From Deltaproteobacteria bacterium (GTDB lineage: Bacteria; JAUYMQ01), in NCBI GenBank assembly GCA_030698575.1, contig JAUYMQ010000027.1:1-10696 (forward strand): a DNA stretch of 10,696 nucleotides, given 5' to 3'. Shown piece by piece: positions 366 through 7,598 of the stretch. The position numbers and the translations under genes were made by a program. The notes under the pieces were generated by a model. It was given only the letters and a program-made list of their open reading frames with translations, did no database searches and was not told the origin of the DNA. Each line of letters starts with the position of its first letter. The stretch's first letter is position 1.

Positions 366-1622
366 ATGGCGCAGCCGCCAGCCAGCCTCGATGCGCTCAT
401 CCGCCGCTATGACGCCGGCGTTTTCGAACCGCCTCCGGAGGGGTTGCGCGTCCGCCTGATCGCCTCGGGCGCCGGCGAATGGGACGTGACCCTGAAGCCA
501 GGGAACGCCGAAATCGGCGCGGCGCGGGGACCGGCCCCCGAAGCCACGCTTGCGGCCGATACGGGCACCTGGGCGGAGATCGCGGAAGACGGGCGAGCGG
601 GGCTCCTGGCCTTCCGGCAGGGGCGGCTTATCATTCGCCGAAATTTGAATCTGGGGGTCGCGCTGCTGGCCGCAACGAGCGGCGTCACGGGGCCCGGGCG
701 GCTCCGCTTCCGTCAGGTCGAGACCGCTTCGGGCGTGCTTTCGGTGATGGAGGGGGGCGCCGGCGTCCCGGTCATCCTGATCCACGGCCTCGGCGCGACC
801 AAGGGATCCTTTCTCCCCACCCTCCTCGGGCTCTCCGGCGCTTTCAGATTGATCGCACTGGATCTACCGGGCTTCGGCGATTCCACGAAGCCCTTGCTCG
901 CCCCCTACCACGCCCCCTTCTTCGCCCGCGCCGTCGCCGAGTTGATGAACTCGCTGCACATCGATCGGGCGCACGTCATCGGGAACAGCATGGGCGGGCG
1001 CACCGCCCTCGAGGTGGGCCTGCGCTATCCGAAGCGGGTCCGGCGGCTCGTGCTGCTCGCGCCGTCGCTCGCCTGGAAGCGCGAGCGCCCGTGGGCGCCT
1101 CTCGTGCGGCTGCTCCGCCCCGAGCTCAGCTTGATCCAGCTCGCGCCCAGACCGGTCATCGAGGGATTTGTCCACCGGATGATCCCGGGCGCCGAGACCA
1201 ACTGGGTGCGCGCCGGCGTGGACGAGTTTCTGAGATCCTACATGACGCCCCGGGGACGCATGGCGTTCTACGCAGCGGCACGGCAGATCTATCTGGAGGA
1301 GCCGCACGGCTCGAAAGGCTTCTGGACACGGCTCGCCCGCCTCGAGCCCGAGGCGCTGTTCATCTGGGAGAAGCGTGACACGCTCGTGCCGATAGCGTTC
1401 GCCAGCCACGTGCGCCGCGCGCTCCCGCCCGCGCGACACCTCGAGCTCGATTGCGGCCACGTACCGCAAATGGAGTGCACGCTGGAGACCAACGCCGCCA
1501 TCGCAGAGTTCCTCTCGGCTGCCCCGATGGACAAGACCGCCGCGCGCCGGCCCGGGAGGGCGCTCGGCGAAAGGCGCGCTTACGGGGAACCCGGTCTGAC
1601 GCCCCCCTCCCAGAGTCCGTGA
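366..1622 (+). CDS. Alpha/beta-fold hydrolase with N-terminal SCP2-like domain
   Basis: 418 aa. The ATG at 366 is preferred over the in-frame start at 222 because GGGAGG sits 9 nt upstream and the longer version adds low-complexity sequence. Residues about 15-115 resemble the SCP2 sterol/lipid-carrier fold: strands ending in a 'GRAGLLAFRQGRLIIRRNLNLGVALL' type pattern, as in SCP2 'aFmtGklkikGd'. Residues about 120-385 are an alpha/beta hydrolase: oxyanion-loop HGLG at 140-143, nucleophile elbow G-N-S-M-G-G with Ser208, acid Asp338 (EKRD) and His365 (CGH). All three triad members are present, so it should be an active esterase or lipase-like hydrolase. The substrate is unknown; the SCP2-like half suggests a hydrophobic acyl or sterol ligand (inference). 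The C-terminal 35 residues are polar and probably disordered. No signal peptide is seen. It ends only 7 bp from the convergent folC stop. Confidence 0.85.
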   Translation: MAQPPASLDALIRRYDAGVFEPPPEGLRVRLIASGAGEWDVTLKPGNAEIGAARGPAPEATLAADTGTWAEIAEDGRAGLLAFRQGRLIIRRNLNLGVALLAATSGVTGPGRLRFRQVETASGVLSVMEGGAGVPVILIHGLGATKGSFLPTLLGLSGAFRLIALDLPGFGDSTKPLLAPYHAPFFARAVAELMNSLHIDRAHVIGNSMGGRTALEVGLRYPKRVRRLVLLAPSLAWKRERPWAPLVRLLRPELSLIQLAPRPVIEGFVHRMIPGAETNWVRAGVDEFLRSYMTPRGRMAFYAAARQIYLEEPHGSKGFWTRLARLEPEALFIWEKRDTLVPIAFASHVRRALPPARHLELDCGHVPQMECTLETNAAIAEFLSAAPMDKTAARRPGRALGERRAYGEPGLTPPSQSP

Positions 1623-1629
1623 TTCAACT

Positions 1630-3000
1630 TCAGACAGCCCCCGGGAGCACGGGCGCGCGCCCGGCGCCTCTCGAGAGATGCGCGCGCGCCTCGCCGACCA
1701 CATAGAACGAACCCGATACGAGCACGAGATCCTCGCCCGTCGATTCGCGCAACGCCGCATCGACTGCCCCGGCGACCGACGGGATTGTGCGCGCCCGCGC
1801 CCCGAGTTTCCTGAGCGCTCGTGCGATCTCCGTCCCGCTAGCCGAACGATCGAACGCCGCCGCGGTGGCCAGGGCGATCCCTCGGGTCCGGCGCACCTCG
1901 CGCGCCAGCGGCCCGAGGAGCTTCGGCAGATCCTTGTCGGACATCGCACCACAGACCAGAACGAGCCTGCGGTAGGAGAAGACCCGCGGCAGCGCGCGGG
2001 CCAGCGCCCGGGCGCCGGCCGGATTGTGCGCGCCGTCGAGAACGACGGCGCCGCGCCGCGCCGTAGCCGGGAGGACGCGCTCGAGCCTTCCGGCAAGGCG
2101 CGCCGCTGTCACGCCGCGACGCATGTCTCTCTCGCCCACGGCGAGGCCGCGCCCGGACAGGCGCTCGCAGGCTGCGAGCGCAACCGCCGCATTCTCCTGC
2201 TGGTGCGGCCCGAGGAGCCCGCAGCGAAGGCCGGGGAGCTTGGCCCGCAATCCCACGTAGTCGAAACGTTCCTCCGGCTGCGCCAGCGCATGAAAGTCGC
2301 GCCCGAGAAACGAGAGGCAGGCGCCCTGCTCGCGCGCCCGCCGCTGGATCACCCGCCGCGCGGCGGGCGCCTGGGCCGCCGAGACCACGGGCACGCCGCG
2401 CTTCACGATGGCGGCCTTCTCGCCGGCGATGGCCGCAAGCGTGCGCCCGAGGTACCGCTGATGTTCGAGGCTGATGGGCGTGATGGCGCAGACGAGGGGC
2501 GTGGCGACGTTCGTGGCGTCGTAACGGCCTCCCATGCCCGTCTCGATCACGGCCGCCTCGACGCCGCGCTCGGCGAAGTGCAGAAAGGCCATCGCGGTCG
2601 TCGCCTCGAAAAAGGTGACGCCGCGGCCCACTCGGGAGGCCACTTCGGGCATCGCGGCGATGACGCGGCCGGTGAGATCGAGAAGCGCGCGCCGGCCGAT
2701 GGTCCGGCCGTCCACCCTGATTCTCTCGGCAAAGTCGATGAGGTGAGGCGAGGTGTAGAGCCCGGTGCGCCACCCCGCCTCGCGGAGAATTGCCTCCGCG
2801 ATGGCCGCCGTGCTCCCCTTCCCGTTCGTTCCCGCGACGTGAAGGATCCGGAGCTTCTTCTCCGGCGCTCCGAGCGCGTCGAGGAGCGCGCGGGCAGCTT
2901 CGAGATCGAGCTTCATTCCGAACCGCCGGAGGCCGTACAGCCAGGCCAGGCGCTCGGGGAGCGGCGCAGCGGGCCTCCGTGACGATCTTCTGGGAGTCAC
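1630..3000 (-). CDS. folC: Folylpolyglutamate synthase / dihydrofolate synthase
   Basis: 456 aa, normal length for FolC, a cytoplasmic Mur-ligase-family enzyme. It adds glutamate to dihydropteroate (dihydrofolate synthase) and extends the polyglutamate tail of folates, using ATP. Visible motifs are the P-loop GTNGKGST (57-64), TSPHL (83-87), IETGMGGRYDATN (152-164), the LGRTLAAIAGEKAAIV segment (184-199), HQQENA (266-271) and LDGAHNP (321-327). The start is GTG at 3000, with GGAG about 8 nt upstream. It is last in the ccdA-tlpA-DUF2064-accD-folC run. Pairing with accD is conserved in many bacteria. The convergent hydrolase gene ends 7 bp away with no clear terminator between them. Confidence 0.95.
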   Translation of the reverse strand: MTPRRSSRRPAAPLPERLAWLYGLRRFGMKLDLEAARALLDALGAPEKKLRILHVAGTNGKGSTAAIAEAILREAGWRTGLYTSPHLIDFAERIRVDGRTIGRRALLDLTGRVIAAMPEVASRVGRGVTFFEATTAMAFLHFAERGVEAAVIETGMGGRYDATNVATPLVCAITPISLEHQRYLGRTLAAIAGEKAAIVKRGVPVVSAAQAPAARRVIQRRAREQGACLSFLGRDFHALAQPEERFDYVGLRAKLPGLRCGLLGPHQQENAAVALAACERLSGRGLAVGERDMRRGVTAARLAGRLERVLPATARRGAVVLDGAHNPAGARALARALPRVFSYRRLVLVCGAMSDKDLPKLLGPLAREVRRTRGIALATAAAFDRSASGTEIARALRKLGARARTIPSVAGAVDAALRESTGEDLVLVSGSFYVVGEARAHLSRGAGRAPVLPGAV

Positions 3001-3047
3001 CTTCGGTTCTCCGGGAAGGGGCGCGCAGGCGTCGCCGGGGCATTCAT
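2997..3047 (-). CDS. Possible 16-codon leader ORF overlapping the folC start
   Basis: In the accD-folC gap, ATG at 3047 opens a 16-codon frame (MNAPATPARPFPENRR). Its TGA stop shares the bases GTGA with folC's GTG start. Such overlaps can couple translation. The Shine-Dalgarno before this ATG is poor, and a random short ORF of this size is easy to find in GC-rich DNA, so this is a weak candidate only. Confidence 0.2.
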   Translation of the reverse strand: MNAPATPARPFPENRR

Positions 3048-3067
3048 GGGAACGACCCGTGAGGGCC

Positions 3068-3547
3068 TCAGGCGGTGCGGACGGGCGCAGGCGGCGGAAC
3101 GAGAAGGGCGAGCAGGCGCGCGAGTGTCGGGCGAAGCTTGCGCCGGTCGACGACGCGATCGATGAGGCCGTTCCGCAGCAGCGTTTCTGATCGCTGGAGG
3201 TCAGGCGGGAGCTCCGTCTCGATCATCTCCTCGATGACCCGCGTCACCTTCTCGCCCACCACACTCCCCATGCTCCCGCCCATGAACGCCATCTCGAAAA
3301 ACGCGAAGAGCGCGCGATTGCCTTCCACGGATCCCTCGCCGCAGATGACCGCCTCGTCGAGAATTCCCCGTAGCCGTTCGCGGGCGGGCATGCGGCTGTG
3401 GTGACTGCACTTCGGGCAGACCTGGAGGTTCCTGGCCAGTTCGCCGGCGTGGACGATCTCGCCGCACGCCGTGCAACGACTCCAGTCCGCCCCCGTCTTC
3501 TTCCCGGGCGAGCCACCCACTTTTCGTTTTCCGCGCAGCCAGGCCAA
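3068..3547 (-). CDS. accD: Internally shortened AccD: acetyl-CoA carboxylase carboxyltransferase beta subunit lacking the catalytic core
   Basis: 159 aa, whereas AccD is normally about 280-300. TTG start at 3547 with GAGGAGGG 7 nt upstream; the resulting MAWLRGKRK start is typical of AccD. The four-Cys zinc ribbon is intact (C25, C28, C44, C47), followed by HHSRMPARERLRGILDE, as in real AccD. The sequence then jumps at residues 63-67 to the strand before FMGGSMGSVVGEK (88-100). At residues 103-107 it jumps to the C-terminal ELPPDLQRSETLL...LIDRVV block. By comparison with E. coli AccD from memory, about 38 and about 90 residues are missing, including SASGGARMQEG, the DPTTGGV region and IAEPGALIGFAGP. 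The acyl-CoA and carboxybiotin active site is therefore absent. The reading frame is uninterrupted. It lies in the classical place before folC. Options are a decaying pseudogene, a derived zinc-ribbon protein, or an assembly error. Confidence 0.85.
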   Translation of the reverse strand: MAWLRGKRKVGGSPGKKTGADWSRCTACGEIVHAGELARNLQVCPKCSHHSRMPARERLRGILDEAVICGEGSVEGNRALFAFFEMAFMGGSMGSVVGEKVTRVIEEMIETELPPDLQRSETLLRNGLIDRVVDRRKLRPTLARLLALLVPPPAPVRTA

Positions 3548-3554
3548 GCGCCCG

Positions 3555-3562
3555 CCCTCCTC
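3555..3562 (-). promoter_or_regulatory. Shine-Dalgarno deciding the TTG start of accD
   Basis: GAGGAGGG on the minus strand lies 7 nt before TTG 3547. It supports that start even though no ATG is available, and shows that the shortened gene still has a good translation signal. Confidence 0.7.
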
Positions 3563-3572
3563 AATCTCTCCG

Positions 3573-3603
3573 CCCGGGCCGATCCCTCAGGCAGCGGCCC
3601 GGG
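3573..3603 (-). repeat. 9-bp inverted repeat (intercistronic hairpin) upstream of accD
   Basis: On the minus strand, CCCGGGCCG is separated by 13 nt from its exact complement CGGCCCGGG. The hairpin falls between the stop of the DUF2064 gene (3610) and the accD ribosome binding site. No U-run follows, so termination is unlikely. An mRNA processing, stability or attenuation role is inference. Confidence 0.5.
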
Positions 3604-3609
3604 GTCACG

Positions 3610-4320
3610 TCAATTTTCCCCAGGGGTATTCCGCAGCGCCGGAATCGTCGCGAGCATGCGTCGCGTCTCGGGCGCGCCACCGGCGGCCGCCGGCCCGAGC
3701 GTTTCGAGATGGCCGCGGAGCATTCGCAGATCCGCGATCACGTCGACGTCGTACCAGGTAGGCGTGTAAGCCAGACGGAGCCCCGCGCGCTCGACGTTGG
3801 CCCGGGTTGCGGCAAGCGCGCCGTCGGTGTCCCAGGGAACCCCGGCAAAAACGGCGCCGGGCGCCGCGGCTGGTCCGAGGGCCGCCAGCGTGTAGCCGCC
3901 ATCGAAGCTCGGCCCGAGGACCACGTCGCGCCCCGCGCGCAGCCGCGCAAAAGCGAGATCGACGAAGGCCCTCGGCAGCGTCGGGGAGTCGGCGCCGATG
4001 AAGAGGACCCGCGCCGCGCCGCCGGCCCGGGCTCGCGCCGTCGCGTCGGCGAGGCGCTCGGTCAGATCGGCGCCCCGCTGCACATCGAGCGAAAGGCGCC
4101 AGGTCCCGGCCAGGGTGCGGAGAAACTCGTCGGGCGCCGGTGTGCACGCGAGCGTCCCCGCGAGACCCGCCTCCGTGAAAACCGAGCGCACCGTGTCGGC
4201 CACCATCGCGCGGTAGAGCCTGGCGGCCATATCGGCGCCGATCACGAGCGCGAGCCGCGTCTTCACGAGGCCGGGCGAGGGCGCCTTGGTGAAGACGATC
4301 ACGCGCTCGGCGGCGCTCAT
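3610..4320 (-). CDS. TIGR04282/DUF2064 family GT-A fold transferase
   Basis: 236 aa, ATG at 4320, with a modest AGGGG 25 bp after the tlpA stop. The family is a GT-A-fold nucleotidyltransferase/glycosyltransferase group, some members of which are annotated in arsenosugar biosynthesis. Diagnostic pieces are the N-terminal FTKAPSPGLVKTRL (10-23), the IGADSPTLP segment (108-116) with the metal-site-like Asp111, GPSFDGGYTL (136-145), FAGVPWDTDGAL (158-169) and WYDVDVIADLRML (189-201). In the third motif Phe139 stands where family members usually have an acidic residue before DGGY. No signal peptide or membrane segment is seen; it should be cytoplasmic. No arsenosugar partners (such as ArsS or ArsM) lie in this window, so that role is not supported here. 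The substrate is unknown. Confidence 0.85.
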   Translation of the reverse strand: MSAAERVIVFTKAPSPGLVKTRLALVIGADMAARLYRAMVADTVRSVFTEAGLAGTLACTPAPDEFLRTLAGTWRLSLDVQRGADLTERLADATARARAGGAARVLFIGADSPTLPRAFVDLAFARLRAGRDVVLGPSFDGGYTLAALGPAAAPGAVFAGVPWDTDGALAATRANVERAGLRLAYTPTWYDVDVIADLRMLRGHLETLGPAAAGGAPETRRMLATIPALRNTPGEN

Positions 4321-4345
4321 GGCCGCCCCTGAGCACAGGCGCGGC

Positions 4346-4828
4346 TCAAAGCAGGGTCTTGATGAGCGATTCGTACTCCTCGCGATCCACGATGCCCACG
4401 AATCGGCGGACGATCTGACCCTGGCGGTCGATCAGGAACGAGGCCGGGATGCCGGGAATGCCGCCGAATGCGCGCGTGGTTCCCTCGTCGCCGAGAAGCA
4501 CATCGTAGTCCATCCGCCGCTCGGCGGCGTAGGGCGCCACGACCTTGCTCCCGCCCACGTCGAGGGCGATGCCGACCACCTGGAAACCCCGTTCGCCGTA
4601 AGAAGCCTGGAGTTTGGAGAGAAGCGGGATGGATTCCTCGCAGGGAGCGCACCAGGTGGCCCAGAAGTCGATGAGCAGGACCTTCCCCCGGTAGCCCGAG
4701 AGCGCCACCTCGCGCCCGTCGAGCCCCTCCAGCATGACATCCGGGAGATCCGCAACCGGCGCGATCTCATGGGGCGCGCCGCAGCCGAGAATCACCAGGA
4801 AGGCCAGCGCAGCCGCCACCGCCCTCAA
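4346..4828 (-). CDS. TlpA/ResA-like thioredoxin-fold lipoprotein
   Basis: 160 aa from TTG 4828. That TTG overlaps the ccdA stop as TTGA and has GGGGGA 5 nt upstream, so translation coupling is likely. GTG 4849 is an alternative start that gives a more basic signal peptide (MGFRGKALR) but has no Shine-Dalgarno. The N-terminus is hydrophobic, ending in the lipobox-like I-L-G-C with Cys16 as the probable lipidated residue. The thioredoxin domain runs from about 25 to 160: FWATWCAPC with redox pair Cys60/Cys63, cis-proline Pro128 in GIPGIPASF, then FLIDRQGQIVRRFVG. Members are periplasmic thiol reductants, often for cytochrome c maturation, recharged by CcdA. The neighbouring ccdA fits this exactly. 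No cytochrome c assembly genes are in the window, so the client protein is unknown. Confidence 0.9.
   Translation of the reverse strand: MRAVAAALAFLVILGCGAPHEIAPVADLPDVMLEGLDGREVALSGYRGKVLLIDFWATWCAPCEESIPLLSKLQASYGERGFQVVGIALDVGGSKVVAPYAAERRMDYDVLLGDEGTTRAFGGIPGIPASFLIDRQGQIVRRFVGIVDREEYESLIKTLL
4825..4828 (-). other. TTGA stop-start overlap joining ccdA and tlpA-like gene
   Basis: The ccdA TGA (4827-4825) and the likely TTG start (4828-4826) of the thioredoxin gene share bases. The Shine-Dalgarno-like GGGGGAAGG lies inside the ccdA end at 4831-4839. This arrangement suggests coupled translation of the two redox partners. Confidence 0.55.
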
Positions 4829-5556
4829 AGCCTTCCCCCGAAATCCCACTGGGGGAGATAGTTCAGGATGATCGTCATGCGATCGGCGACCAGCAACACG
4901 CCGAGGATGACGAGCACGCATCCGGCGAGGATCTCGACGGTGCGGATGTGGCGGCGGAAGCGCTTCATGCCGGAGAGGAACACCGGAATGGCGAGGGCCG
5001 ACAGGAAAAAAGGAATGCCGAGCCCCAGGCTGTAGAGGCACAGGAGCCCTACCCCCTCGCGGACGGTCTCCTGCGCAGCCGCCATCGTCAGAATGGTGGC
5101 CAGCACCGGGCCGATGCAAGGGAGCCAGCCGAAGCTGATGGCGGCGCCCAGAACGAAACTGCTGCCGAAGAGGCCCGTTCGCGCGGGGAGGTTCTGGAAA
5201 CCGCGAATGCGATAGATAAAGCTGAGCTTGAGCAAGCCGATGAGGTGCAATCCGAAGAGGATGACGATGACCCCGGCGATGCGTCCGAGGATGTGCCGGT
5301 AGGAGACCAGAAGCTGCCCGGCCGAGGTGGCCACGGCGCCCATGGCGATAAAGATCGCGGAGAAGCCCAGGATGAACGCGATGGCGTTCCAGAGAACGCG
5401 CGGTGGGACGCGGTGGTGGCTCTCCTCGGCGGCGATCTCGTCGAGGGTGAGCCCTGAAATGTAGGAGACGTAACCTGGCACGAGCGGCAGGACGCAGGGT
5501 GAAGCGAACGAGACGAAGCCGCCGACGAGGGCGCCGATGACGGTAACCTGTTCCAA
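4825..5556 (-). CDS. ccdA: Cytochrome c biogenesis / DsbD-type thiol transporter CcdA
   Basis: 243 aa from TTG 5556, chosen because a perfect AAGGAGGT lies 4 nt upstream. The longer frame to 5649 would cover the promoter. CcdA is an inner-membrane protein of about six helices that carries reducing equivalents from cytoplasmic thioredoxin to periplasmic thioredoxin-like partners. Seen here are the paired conserved motifs FASPCVLPLVPGY (17-29, Cys21) and GWLPCIGPVL (143-152, Cys147), with the redox Cys in each. Hydrophobic helices lie at about 5-35, 57-79, 88-112, 131-160, 169-196 and 207-224. Length and layout are normal for stand-alone CcdA, without the DsbD C-terminal thioredoxin domain. That part is supplied by the overlapping downstream TlpA-like gene. 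First gene of the operon. Confidence 0.95.
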   Translation of the reverse strand: MEQVTVIGALVGGFVSFASPCVLPLVPGYVSYISGLTLDEIAAEESHHRVPPRVLWNAIAFILGFSAIFIAMGAVATSAGQLLVSYRHILGRIAGVIVILFGLHLIGLLKLSFIYRIRGFQNLPARTGLFGSSFVLGAAISFGWLPCIGPVLATILTMAAAQETVREGVGLLCLYSLGLGIPFFLSALAIPVFLSGMKRFRRHIRTVEILAGCVLVILGVLLVADRMTIILNYLPQWDFGGRL

Positions 5557-5560
5557 AGAT

Positions 5561-5568
5561 ACCTCCTT
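5561..5568 (-). promoter_or_regulatory. Perfect Shine-Dalgarno of ccdA
   Basis: AAGGAGGT on the minus strand, 4 nt before TTG 5556. It settles the ccdA start. Confidence 0.85.
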
Positions 5569-5610
5569 ACCCTTTCGTGGCTTATCCCTTCTTGGCTCAT
5601 CCCCTCGTGG
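5566..5610 (-). repeat. Three tandem 15-nt repeats in the ccdA leader
   Basis: On the minus strand the units are CCACGAGGGGATGAG (5610-5596), CCAAGAAGGGATAAG (5595-5581) and CCACGAAAGGGTAAG (5580-5566). Neighbouring units match at 12 of 15 positions. The last unit runs into GAGGT and so forms part of the ccdA Shine-Dalgarno. Each unit contains a purine-rich, Shine-Dalgarno-like core. With the promoter at 5621-5649 they make up nearly the whole 5' untranslated region. Confidence 0.75.
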
Positions 5611-5620
5611 CCGGACTCTT

Positions 5621-5649
5621 CTTATAGATAATCGACACGGCCCTTTCAA
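5621..5649 (-). promoter_or_regulatory. Near-consensus sigma-70 promoter of the ccdA operon
   Basis: On the minus strand TTGAAA (5649-5644, -35) is followed by exactly 17 nt and then TATAAG (5626-5621, -10). Five of six bases match consensus at the -35 and four to five at the -10. AT-rich bases stand out in a GC-rich background. The predicted start near 5614 gives a leader of about 58 nt before ccdA and fits TTG 5556 rather than a longer ccdA. Confidence 0.75.
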
Positions 5650-5706
5650 CGCGCGGTGTGCGAGGCGCCGCCTGGAGAAGCGAACCAGTCGCGGCGTGCC
5701 GGGCTT

Positions 5707-5735
5707 TTGCGGTCGCCAGCGACGTGGGTTAATCT
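5707..5735 (+). promoter_or_regulatory. Putative promoter for the histidine-phosphatase gene
   Basis: TTGCGG (5707-5712) is followed by a 17-bp spacer and TAATCT (5730-5735). The spacer holds a short inverted repeat GTCGC-CA-GCGAC (5712-5723). It is divergent from the ccdA promoter, with the two -35 boxes about 58 bp apart. Both boxes are imperfect. Confidence 0.4.
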
Positions 5736-5801
5736 GCCCGTTCGGACGCGCCGTGACCCCGCAACGTGAACAGGCGCCCGACCCATGCAGAGGGAGCGTC
5801 A

Positions 5802-6512
5802 GTGCCGCCTGATAACGCGAAGTCCCCGCTCAGGATCCACCTCGCCCGCCACGCCGAGACCGAGTGGAATCGCGTGCGCCGTGTCCAGGGCGTCTCCGAC
5901 ATTCCGCTGAACGAGCGCGGAATGGCCCAGGCGTCGGCCCTGGGGGCGCGTTTCGCCGCGGAGCCCCTCGAGGCGGTCTACGCGAGCCCGCTTGCGAGGG
6001 CGCGGCAGACCGCCGAGGCCATCGCCTCTGCTCACGGCCTCGAGGTCCAGATTATCGGAGACCTCTCCGAGTTCGATCAGGGCGACCTCGAGGGGCGCTA
6101 CCTGAGTGACATCGCCCGCGAGTACCCGGAGCTCCTCGCCGCCTTCGGGAAGGAGCCGGGGAAAGTCCGCATCCCCGGTGGCGAAACCCTGACCGAGGTT
6201 CAGACACGCGCCTGGCGCGCTTTCACCCTGCTTCTCGATCGCCACACCGGGGGCAGCATCGTCGCGGTCTCACACAATATGACGCTCCTCACCCTGCTCT
6301 GCCGCTTCCTCGGGATGAGCCTCACGCACTTCCGGCGCCTCACACAGAGCTCGACCGGCGTGACGAGCTTCGAGCGGGGAATCCAGGGCCTTCACCTGCG
6401 CGTCCTGAACGACATCTCTCATCTGCCCCCGGAACTCCGCCCCGAGGAGCCGGGGATCCAGCCGGTCCACCTCCGGCCCGGTGAGGAGAACGGCCCGGCC
6501 GAGAACGCCTGA
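5802..6512 (+). CDS. Histidine phosphatase family protein (phosphoglycerate-mutase-like)
   Basis: 236 aa from GTG 5802, which has GGGAG 5 nt upstream. An in-frame GTG at 5766 lacks a Shine-Dalgarno. The phosphohistidine motif is LARHAETEWN with Arg16 and His17. SPLARARQTA (62-71) supplies the second phosphate-binding Arg66. The LSEFDQGDLEG segment (88-98) carries the probable general acid Glu90, and VSHNMTL (156-162) holds the second catalytic His158. The whole family set is present, so the enzyme should be an active phosphatase or mutase of the cofactor-dependent PGM superfamily. Motif layout resembles GpmB/CobC-type phosphatases; the substrate cannot be told from sequence. The C-terminal 30 residues are Pro/Glu-rich and beyond the usual fold. 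Probably co-transcribed with the DsbA-like gene 45 bp downstream. Confidence 0.9.
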   Translation: MPPDNAKSPLRIHLARHAETEWNRVRRVQGVSDIPLNERGMAQASALGARFAAEPLEAVYASPLARARQTAEAIASAHGLEVQIIGDLSEFDQGDLEGRYLSDIAREYPELLAAFGKEPGKVRIPGGETLTEVQTRAWRAFTLLLDRHTGGSIVAVSHNMTLLTLLCRFLGMSLTHFRRLTQSSTGVTSFERGIQGLHLRVLNDISHLPPELRPEEPGIQPVHLRPGEENGPAENA

Positions 6513-6557
6513 TCGGGGGGAGCCTGTGGCGTCAGTCATTAGGAGGCCCTCGCGCGG

Positions 6558-7013
6558 ATGGGGCTCAGCGGGAGGTGGCGCCGGGTCGAGGAGTTCGCGG
6601 CCGGGGCCGGTGTGCCCATCGCGCAACCTCCGCTCCTTCCCTCGAGCCGGCTCGCTCTGGAGGGCGCTGAGCTGGCGCGGCGAGAAGGGCGCCTGGACGC
6701 CTACCGCGAGCGCGTCTTCAGAGCCTACTTCATCGAGGGAGCGGACATCGGCGACCGGAACGTGCTCTGCGATATCGCGGCCGAAACAGGCCTCGACCGC
6801 TCGCGCTTCGAACAAGAGGTCATCGGACGACGTTTCCGCGACGAACTGGACCGCCACCGGGAGGATGCGGAGGATCTCCTGGTGACCGGCGTTCCTGCAT
6901 TCTTCCTGCACGGGGTGGCCGTTGTCGGCGCCCGGTCCCCCGGGGAATACCACGCGGCTTTCTCCCGCATTCTCGCCCGCAGGGCCGCCAAACGGGACGC
7001 CCCGCCCGCCTGA
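6558..7013 (+). CDS. N-terminally shortened DsbA/FrnE-like thioredoxin-fold protein
   Basis: 151 aa from ATG 6558; TAGGAGG lies 11 nt upstream and includes an in-frame TAG at 6540, so no longer start exists. Residues about 5-135 match the helical insert and C-terminal part of DsbA-family oxidoreductases of the FrnE/2-hydroxychromene-2-carboxylate isomerase type: PSSRLALEGAELARREG (28-44), FRAYFIEGADIGD (54-66), LCDIAAETGLD (70-80) and the cis-Pro segment TGVPAFFLHG (110-119, Pro113). The first 60-80 residues of the family, with beta-strand 1 and the C-P-x-C active site, are missing. The only cysteine is Cys71, so it cannot be a disulfide oxidoreductase as it stands. The 45 bp upstream do not encode the missing part in any frame. 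It may be a deletion remnant or a redox-inactive derivative. It is followed by a strong terminator. Confidence 0.8.
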   Translation: MGLSGRWRRVEEFAAGAGVPIAQPPLLPSSRLALEGAELARREGRLDAYRERVFRAYFIEGADIGDRNVLCDIAAETGLDRSRFEQEVIGRRFRDELDRHREDAEDLLVTGVPAFFLHGVAVVGARSPGEYHAAFSRILARRAAKRDAPPA

Positions 7014-7022
7014 GCCCCAACG

Positions 7023-7058
7023 GAGAGAGGGAGCCCTGGGGCTCCCTCTCTCGTTTTT
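7023..7058 (+). terminator. Strong intrinsic terminator
   Basis: GAGAGAGGGAGCC pairs with GGCTCCCTCTCTC around a CTGG loop: a perfect stem of 13 bp (14 if the closing C-G pair is counted), followed by G and TTTTT. It ends the phosphatase/DsbA-like unit 10 bp after its stop. On the minus strand the same hairpin has no T-run, but it could still form at the 3' end of transcripts from the 155-aa gene. Confidence 0.9.
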
Positions 7059-7130
7059 CACCATGAGATCCTCGATCACGCGCCATGAGCCCGGCCGGGG
7101 GGAAACCGGAGCAACGCGCGCCGCTCCTCT

Positions 7131-7598
7131 CTAGAACTGCTCCTCGACGATTCCCGAATCACCGCCGGCGACCATGCCGCCCTGCTGATCGGGCGGGTAG
7201 TCAGCCTCCGCCGTGCTGGTTGTTGAGTAACGCTCGCTGCCGACGAAGTGGATCGTATCCTCGCCGGTCAGATGCCGGGGCGTCAGCACGTAGGTGCCGC
7301 GGAGCGAGGGCGTGAAGATACGATCCGCCACCTCCCCGTCGCCGCCCGTGAGGATCCATCCGGCGCTTCCCGTGGTGAGACCGAGCGCGCCGTAGATCAA
7401 CTTCGCCGGGACGTAGAGGAAATCAGCTCCGATGGCCGCGATCCCCAGACCCGCCTGGGCCCAGGTTGATTCTTCTTCTTGCTGTTCCACCTGGTAATTC
7501 TGATCGTAGGTGCCGCCGGTGTCCGACGCGACCGCCGGCGGCGCCGGCGCAAACACGAGCGCCAGGGCCAGCCCGAAGGCCGCCGTTCGCAGAAACAT
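7131..7598 (-). CDS. Secreted protein of unknown function (155 aa)
   Basis: ATG 7598, preceded by GGAGG about 8 nt upstream. Residues 1-24 form a Sec signal (MFLRTAAFGLALALVFA..., cut probably after Ala24 in PAVA-S), giving a mature protein of about 131 aa with no cysteine. An acidic Gln/Glu-rich linker (36-44) leads to a hydrophobic, Gly-rich centre (50-84: GADFLYVPAKLIYGALG, then TTGSAGWILTGG). Next comes a polar block with SLRGTYVLTPRHLTGEDTIHFVG (98-120). The tail is Gly/Asp-rich and probably disordered. I recall vaguely similar central motifs in uncharacterised proteins of other high-GC Gram-negatives but know no function. The hydrophobic centre could contact the outer or inner membrane (inference). 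It has its own promoter at 7667-7695. Confidence 0.8.
   Translation of the reverse strand: MFLRTAAFGLALALVFAPAPPAVASDTGGTYDQNYQVEQQEEESTWAQAGLGIAAIGADFLYVPAKLIYGALGLTTGSAGWILTGGDGEVADRIFTPSLRGTYVLTPRHLTGEDTIHFVGSERYSTTSTAEADYPPDQQGGMVAGGDSGIVEEQF

Follow-up and report, generated by a model that had tools for sequence, protein, structure and literature searches.

Organization of the accD locus

The window (the whole stretch of 10,696 nucleotides that was analysed) contains a shortened accD gene next to folC, its usual neighbour. The gene is a 159-codon open frame on the reverse strand, at positions 3068 to 3547, which begins with TTG and encodes a product of 159 amino acids. The features to which the text refers are the following.

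1630 to 3000, reverse strand: folC, intact (TIGR01499, 361 bits, profile positions 1-397 of 400), adjoining accD
3095 to 3244, reverse strand: retained C-terminal block of accD (TIGR00515 positions 232-281)
3218 to 3244, reverse strand: joint 2, with about 87 residues absent, including SGGARMQE and DPTTGGV
3218 to 3358, reverse strand: retained middle block containing FMGGSMGSVVGEK (TIGR00515 positions 107-153)
3353 to 3358, reverse strand: joint 1, with about 39 residues absent (profile positions 70-106), placed by the overlap of the flanking profile matches and by alignment
3353 to 3493, reverse strand: retained zinc-ribbon block with four cysteines (TIGR00515 positions 23-69; PF17848 Zn_ribbon_ACC positions 1-26 of 26)
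3548 to 3562, reverse strand: strong AGGAGG ribosome-binding site upstream of the accD TTG, read from the sequence
6543 to 7013, forward strand: gene for a DsbA-like protein whose N-terminus (profile positions 1-62) is absent (PF01323 positions 63-187 of 191)

The match of the accD frame to TIGR00515 is split into exactly three pieces and scores 114.4 bits, whereas the family cut-off is 317.45. These pieces overlap by about 2 and 9 codons at the joints, which implies that about 39 and 87 residues are missing; an alignment to 36 full-length AccD proteins agrees with these lengths and a BLAST comparison gives 39 and 87. The loss amounts to about 126 residues in total and the reading frame is preserved across both joints. 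What the product still shares with AccD is the zinc ribbon, the GGSMGSVVGEK loop, the C-terminal LPxxxQRSE block and the site beside folC, and the alignment confirmed that the four zinc cysteines and MGGSMGSVVGEK are present, whereas the catalytic motifs SGGARMQE and DPTTGGV are gone. The original prediction had described two in-frame losses of about 38 and 90 residues, a kept zinc ribbon and C-terminal block, a lost GGARMQEG/DPTTGGV core, a strong ribosome-binding site and an adjacent folC, and this description holds in all these respects. Joint 2 sits on RVIEEMIE, a stretch that fits both sides (TRAIE... and PRVIEQT...). No unusual folding was found in a search for hairpins at the joints.

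A search for a second full accD or a fused accDA had also been suggested. Neither was found in the genome: the profile search with TIGR00515 left the copy in the window as the sole accD, and no other accD match supplied the missing motifs. The short form was likewise sought in relatives, and all 43 genomes with an accD match retain frames of 230-476 amino acids. No homologous locus was found in viral contigs. This genome is the only one of its phylum in the comparison, which gives no means of showing that the short form is inherited.

Partner subunits

The gene accA lies on a separate contig (C390), directly behind the stop codon of miaA. Its first approximately 40 codons are absent, no start codon stands where one would be expected, and about 33 further codons have been lost out of frame after SPEGCAAILW, at a joint lying on a short stretch that fits both sides. 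The intact AccA partner that is expected in a genome with a member of the AccD family is consequently lacking here. Among the 45 genomes with an accA match, no comparable short accA was found outside this one. A loss of invariant residues from AccA was considered and rejected, since 4 of 54 are broken as compared with 3-6 in other AccA proteins. For canonical accB, no frame in the genome reaches the family cut-off.

Survey of the assembly

The assembly comprises 4.13 Mb in 653 contigs, with 91.6% completeness and 4.6% contamination. The survey extended over 81 contigs with 506 kb in total, or about 11% of the genome once 11 contigs are left out, and used as references proteins from the complete relative G010, from E. 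coli and from accD-bearing loci. Among 107 gene regions, corresponding to about 36,000 aligned residues, convincing internal deletions were found only in accA and accD. In addition, 30 further genes scanned with Pfam and NCBIfam gave full-length matches or no match, and neither runs of N nor scaffold gaps were found in the surveyed contigs. The original prediction had offered an assembly collapse as one explanation of the short gene; as a general state of this assembly it is rejected on these grounds, although a local artefact is possible.

Apparent deletions in rpoB, in HtrA-like and PhoH-like genes and in others were rejected, being explained by inserts in the reference, domain sharing or an intein. 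The PhoH-like gene (contig C391, positions 1-1300 of locus L175, reverse strand) is interrupted at ...IEVAPLAFMRGR by an apparent intein (PVTSRVLTPFGWRQIGHLEVGDHV...). On contig C7, a region of about 6.5 kb (positions 864-7358 of locus L134) contains no predicted gene with the codon usage of the genome and gave no Rfam match.

The DsbA-like gene is a second truncated gene within the window, on the same contig as accD, and is an exception to the otherwise sound survey. The gene upstream of it ends at position 6512, which leaves no room for the missing N-terminus. Those 62 profile positions are where the CxxC motif is usually found in this family.

State of the retained sequence and predicted fold

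The ratio of accD to folC tree distances is 0.743 in this genome as compared with 0.474 ± 0.071, the highest among 85 genomes. It is still the highest when the joints are left out (0.699 versus 0.479 ± 0.054), and a tree-free version of the comparison gave a z of 3.3. Measured against FolC, the retained AccD thus changes more rapidly than its counterparts in the 84 other genomes. For accA the acceleration is weak, the branch of this genome taking a share of 0.42 of the change against 0.33 ± 0.07, second among 20 genes. The accD frame has no stops, its GC3 of 0.83 is close to the genome mean of 0.837, and the cysteines and the glycine loop are conserved. These two lines of evidence disagree: the acceleration speaks for decay, whereas the clean frame, the GC3 and the kept residues speak against a long decay.

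In the AlphaFold2 prediction the 159-residue product had a pTM of 0.39; a full-length AccD control with a nearly equal number of aligned sequences reached 0.74. Confidence was low at residues 85-108, a disordered stretch around joint 2, whereas the zinc ribbon itself was predicted with confidence. By this model the chain forms no single folded unit, which makes a working mini-enzyme or an mRNA-binding remnant unlikely.

Fatty-acid synthesis and other biotin-dependent carboxylases

The gene fabD is intact and above its family cut-off. It is clustered with putative fabG and fabF genes (read from the sequence), both of full length in comparison with G010, so malonyl-CoA should be needed. Other biotin carboxylases are encoded in the genome. 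On contig C186 an accC gene forms an operon with a carboxyltransferase of the propionyl-CoA carboxylase (PCC) type, a biotin carrier and methylmalonyl-CoA mutase. Another accC, on contig C413, is located beside a small biotin carboxyl carrier protein (BCCP) and an enoyl-CoA-hydratase-like frame.

Contig C175 carries a long frame in which biotin carboxylase (BC) and BCCP domains, recognized by Pfam, are followed by the start of a carboxyltransferase (CT) domain, PF01039. The three domains are on one chain, the last being incomplete because the contig end cuts the frame. Such a fused BC-BCCP-CT frame is rare, and a 300-residue part of the protein had no match in 58 relatives. The frame adjoins a gene which, from our own reading of the sequence, probably encodes a phosphopantetheinyl transferase. 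Multidomain bacterial acetyl-CoA carboxylases that supply malonyl-CoA have been described, namely AccS of Shewanella (PMC11602165) and SACE_4237 of Saccharopolyspora (PMC6491548), and they are a precedent for the supply of malonyl-CoA by a single chain. The frame on C175 is likened to them by its domain make-up; unlike theirs, its sequence breaks off where the contig ends. It may be regarded as a candidate replacement, an enzyme that may supply malonyl-CoA in this organism.

Origin of the short accD

The explanation that we slightly favour, at about even chances, is that the canonical carboxyltransferase has really decayed, fairly recently, after being replaced. The supply of malonyl-CoA would have shifted to another biotin-dependent carboxylase, either the fused enzyme of C175 or the PCC-type one; selection on accA and accD would then have weakened, and parts of both genes would have been lost by deletion, perhaps between short repeats. 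The canonical acetyl-CoA carboxylase carboxyltransferase would no longer be functional and accD would be a decaying remnant. What tips the balance towards decay is that the losses strike both subunits of a single enzyme while the rest of the surveyed assembly is sound, together with the failure to find accB, the presence of candidate replacements and the acceleration of AccD. The original idea that carboxyltransferase activity has moved elsewhere gains support from the same observations. Nevertheless, several large deletions with no other disabling change are odd under neutral decay, and the good state of the retained parts (no stops in accD, GC3, cysteines, glycine loop and the AccA invariants) counts against it. 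Moreover, with an assembly that is 91.6% complete, the absence of the accBC operon could be due to chance. The more specific proposal, a lineage in which AccA and AccD have been swapped for a fused BC-BCCP-CT or a PCC-type enzyme while both old genes are still recognisable and decaying, is put forward tentatively, with rather less than even confidence.

The main competitor is an artefact in which reads that were locally missing or chimeric were joined at short repeats, the living cell having full-length accD and accA. Its chance is somewhat below even. Such an origin would suit a genome split into 653 contigs, the short stretches fitting both sides at joint 2 of accD and at the accA joint, and the restriction of the short form to this genome among its relatives; it would also suit retained segments that are still open and still carry the coding signature and the conserved residues, an intact user of malonyl-CoA in fabD, and the start missing from a third gene, the dsbA-like one, on the accD contig. 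What it does not account for so easily is that the 107 gene regions contain no other convincing deletion and the surveyed contigs no N gaps, that accB was not found, and that AccD shows its acceleration in the retained parts outside the joints as well; it is also unlikely that both subunits of one enzyme were struck by chance.

It had been conceived, too, that the short AccD might be a regulatory remnant, that is, a maintained product without carboxyltransferase activity such as a zinc-ribbon protein binding acc mRNA. This is very improbable. The frame kept across both joints, the strong ribosome-binding site, the four cysteines, the maintained GC3 and the confident prediction of the ribbon would all fit it, but no positive evidence for it emerged: the protein as a whole is predicted less well than full-length AccD and has a disordered stretch at joint 2, no relative has the short form, and accA, its supposed target, is itself broken. 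Furthermore, the model of mRNA binding and autoregulation in E. coli was challenged by Smith and Cronan in 2014, according to a passage of PMC11602165 that cites them.

Significance

In most bacteria AccABCD is the source of malonyl-CoA for fatty-acid synthesis, and it is a drug target. If the joints are artefactual, they call for caution, as a sequence with two in-frame losses can be taken for a short gene even in a draft genome rated 92% complete. If the replacement is true, this genome would have been caught in the middle of a swap and would show how an essential enzyme of several subunits gets exchanged.
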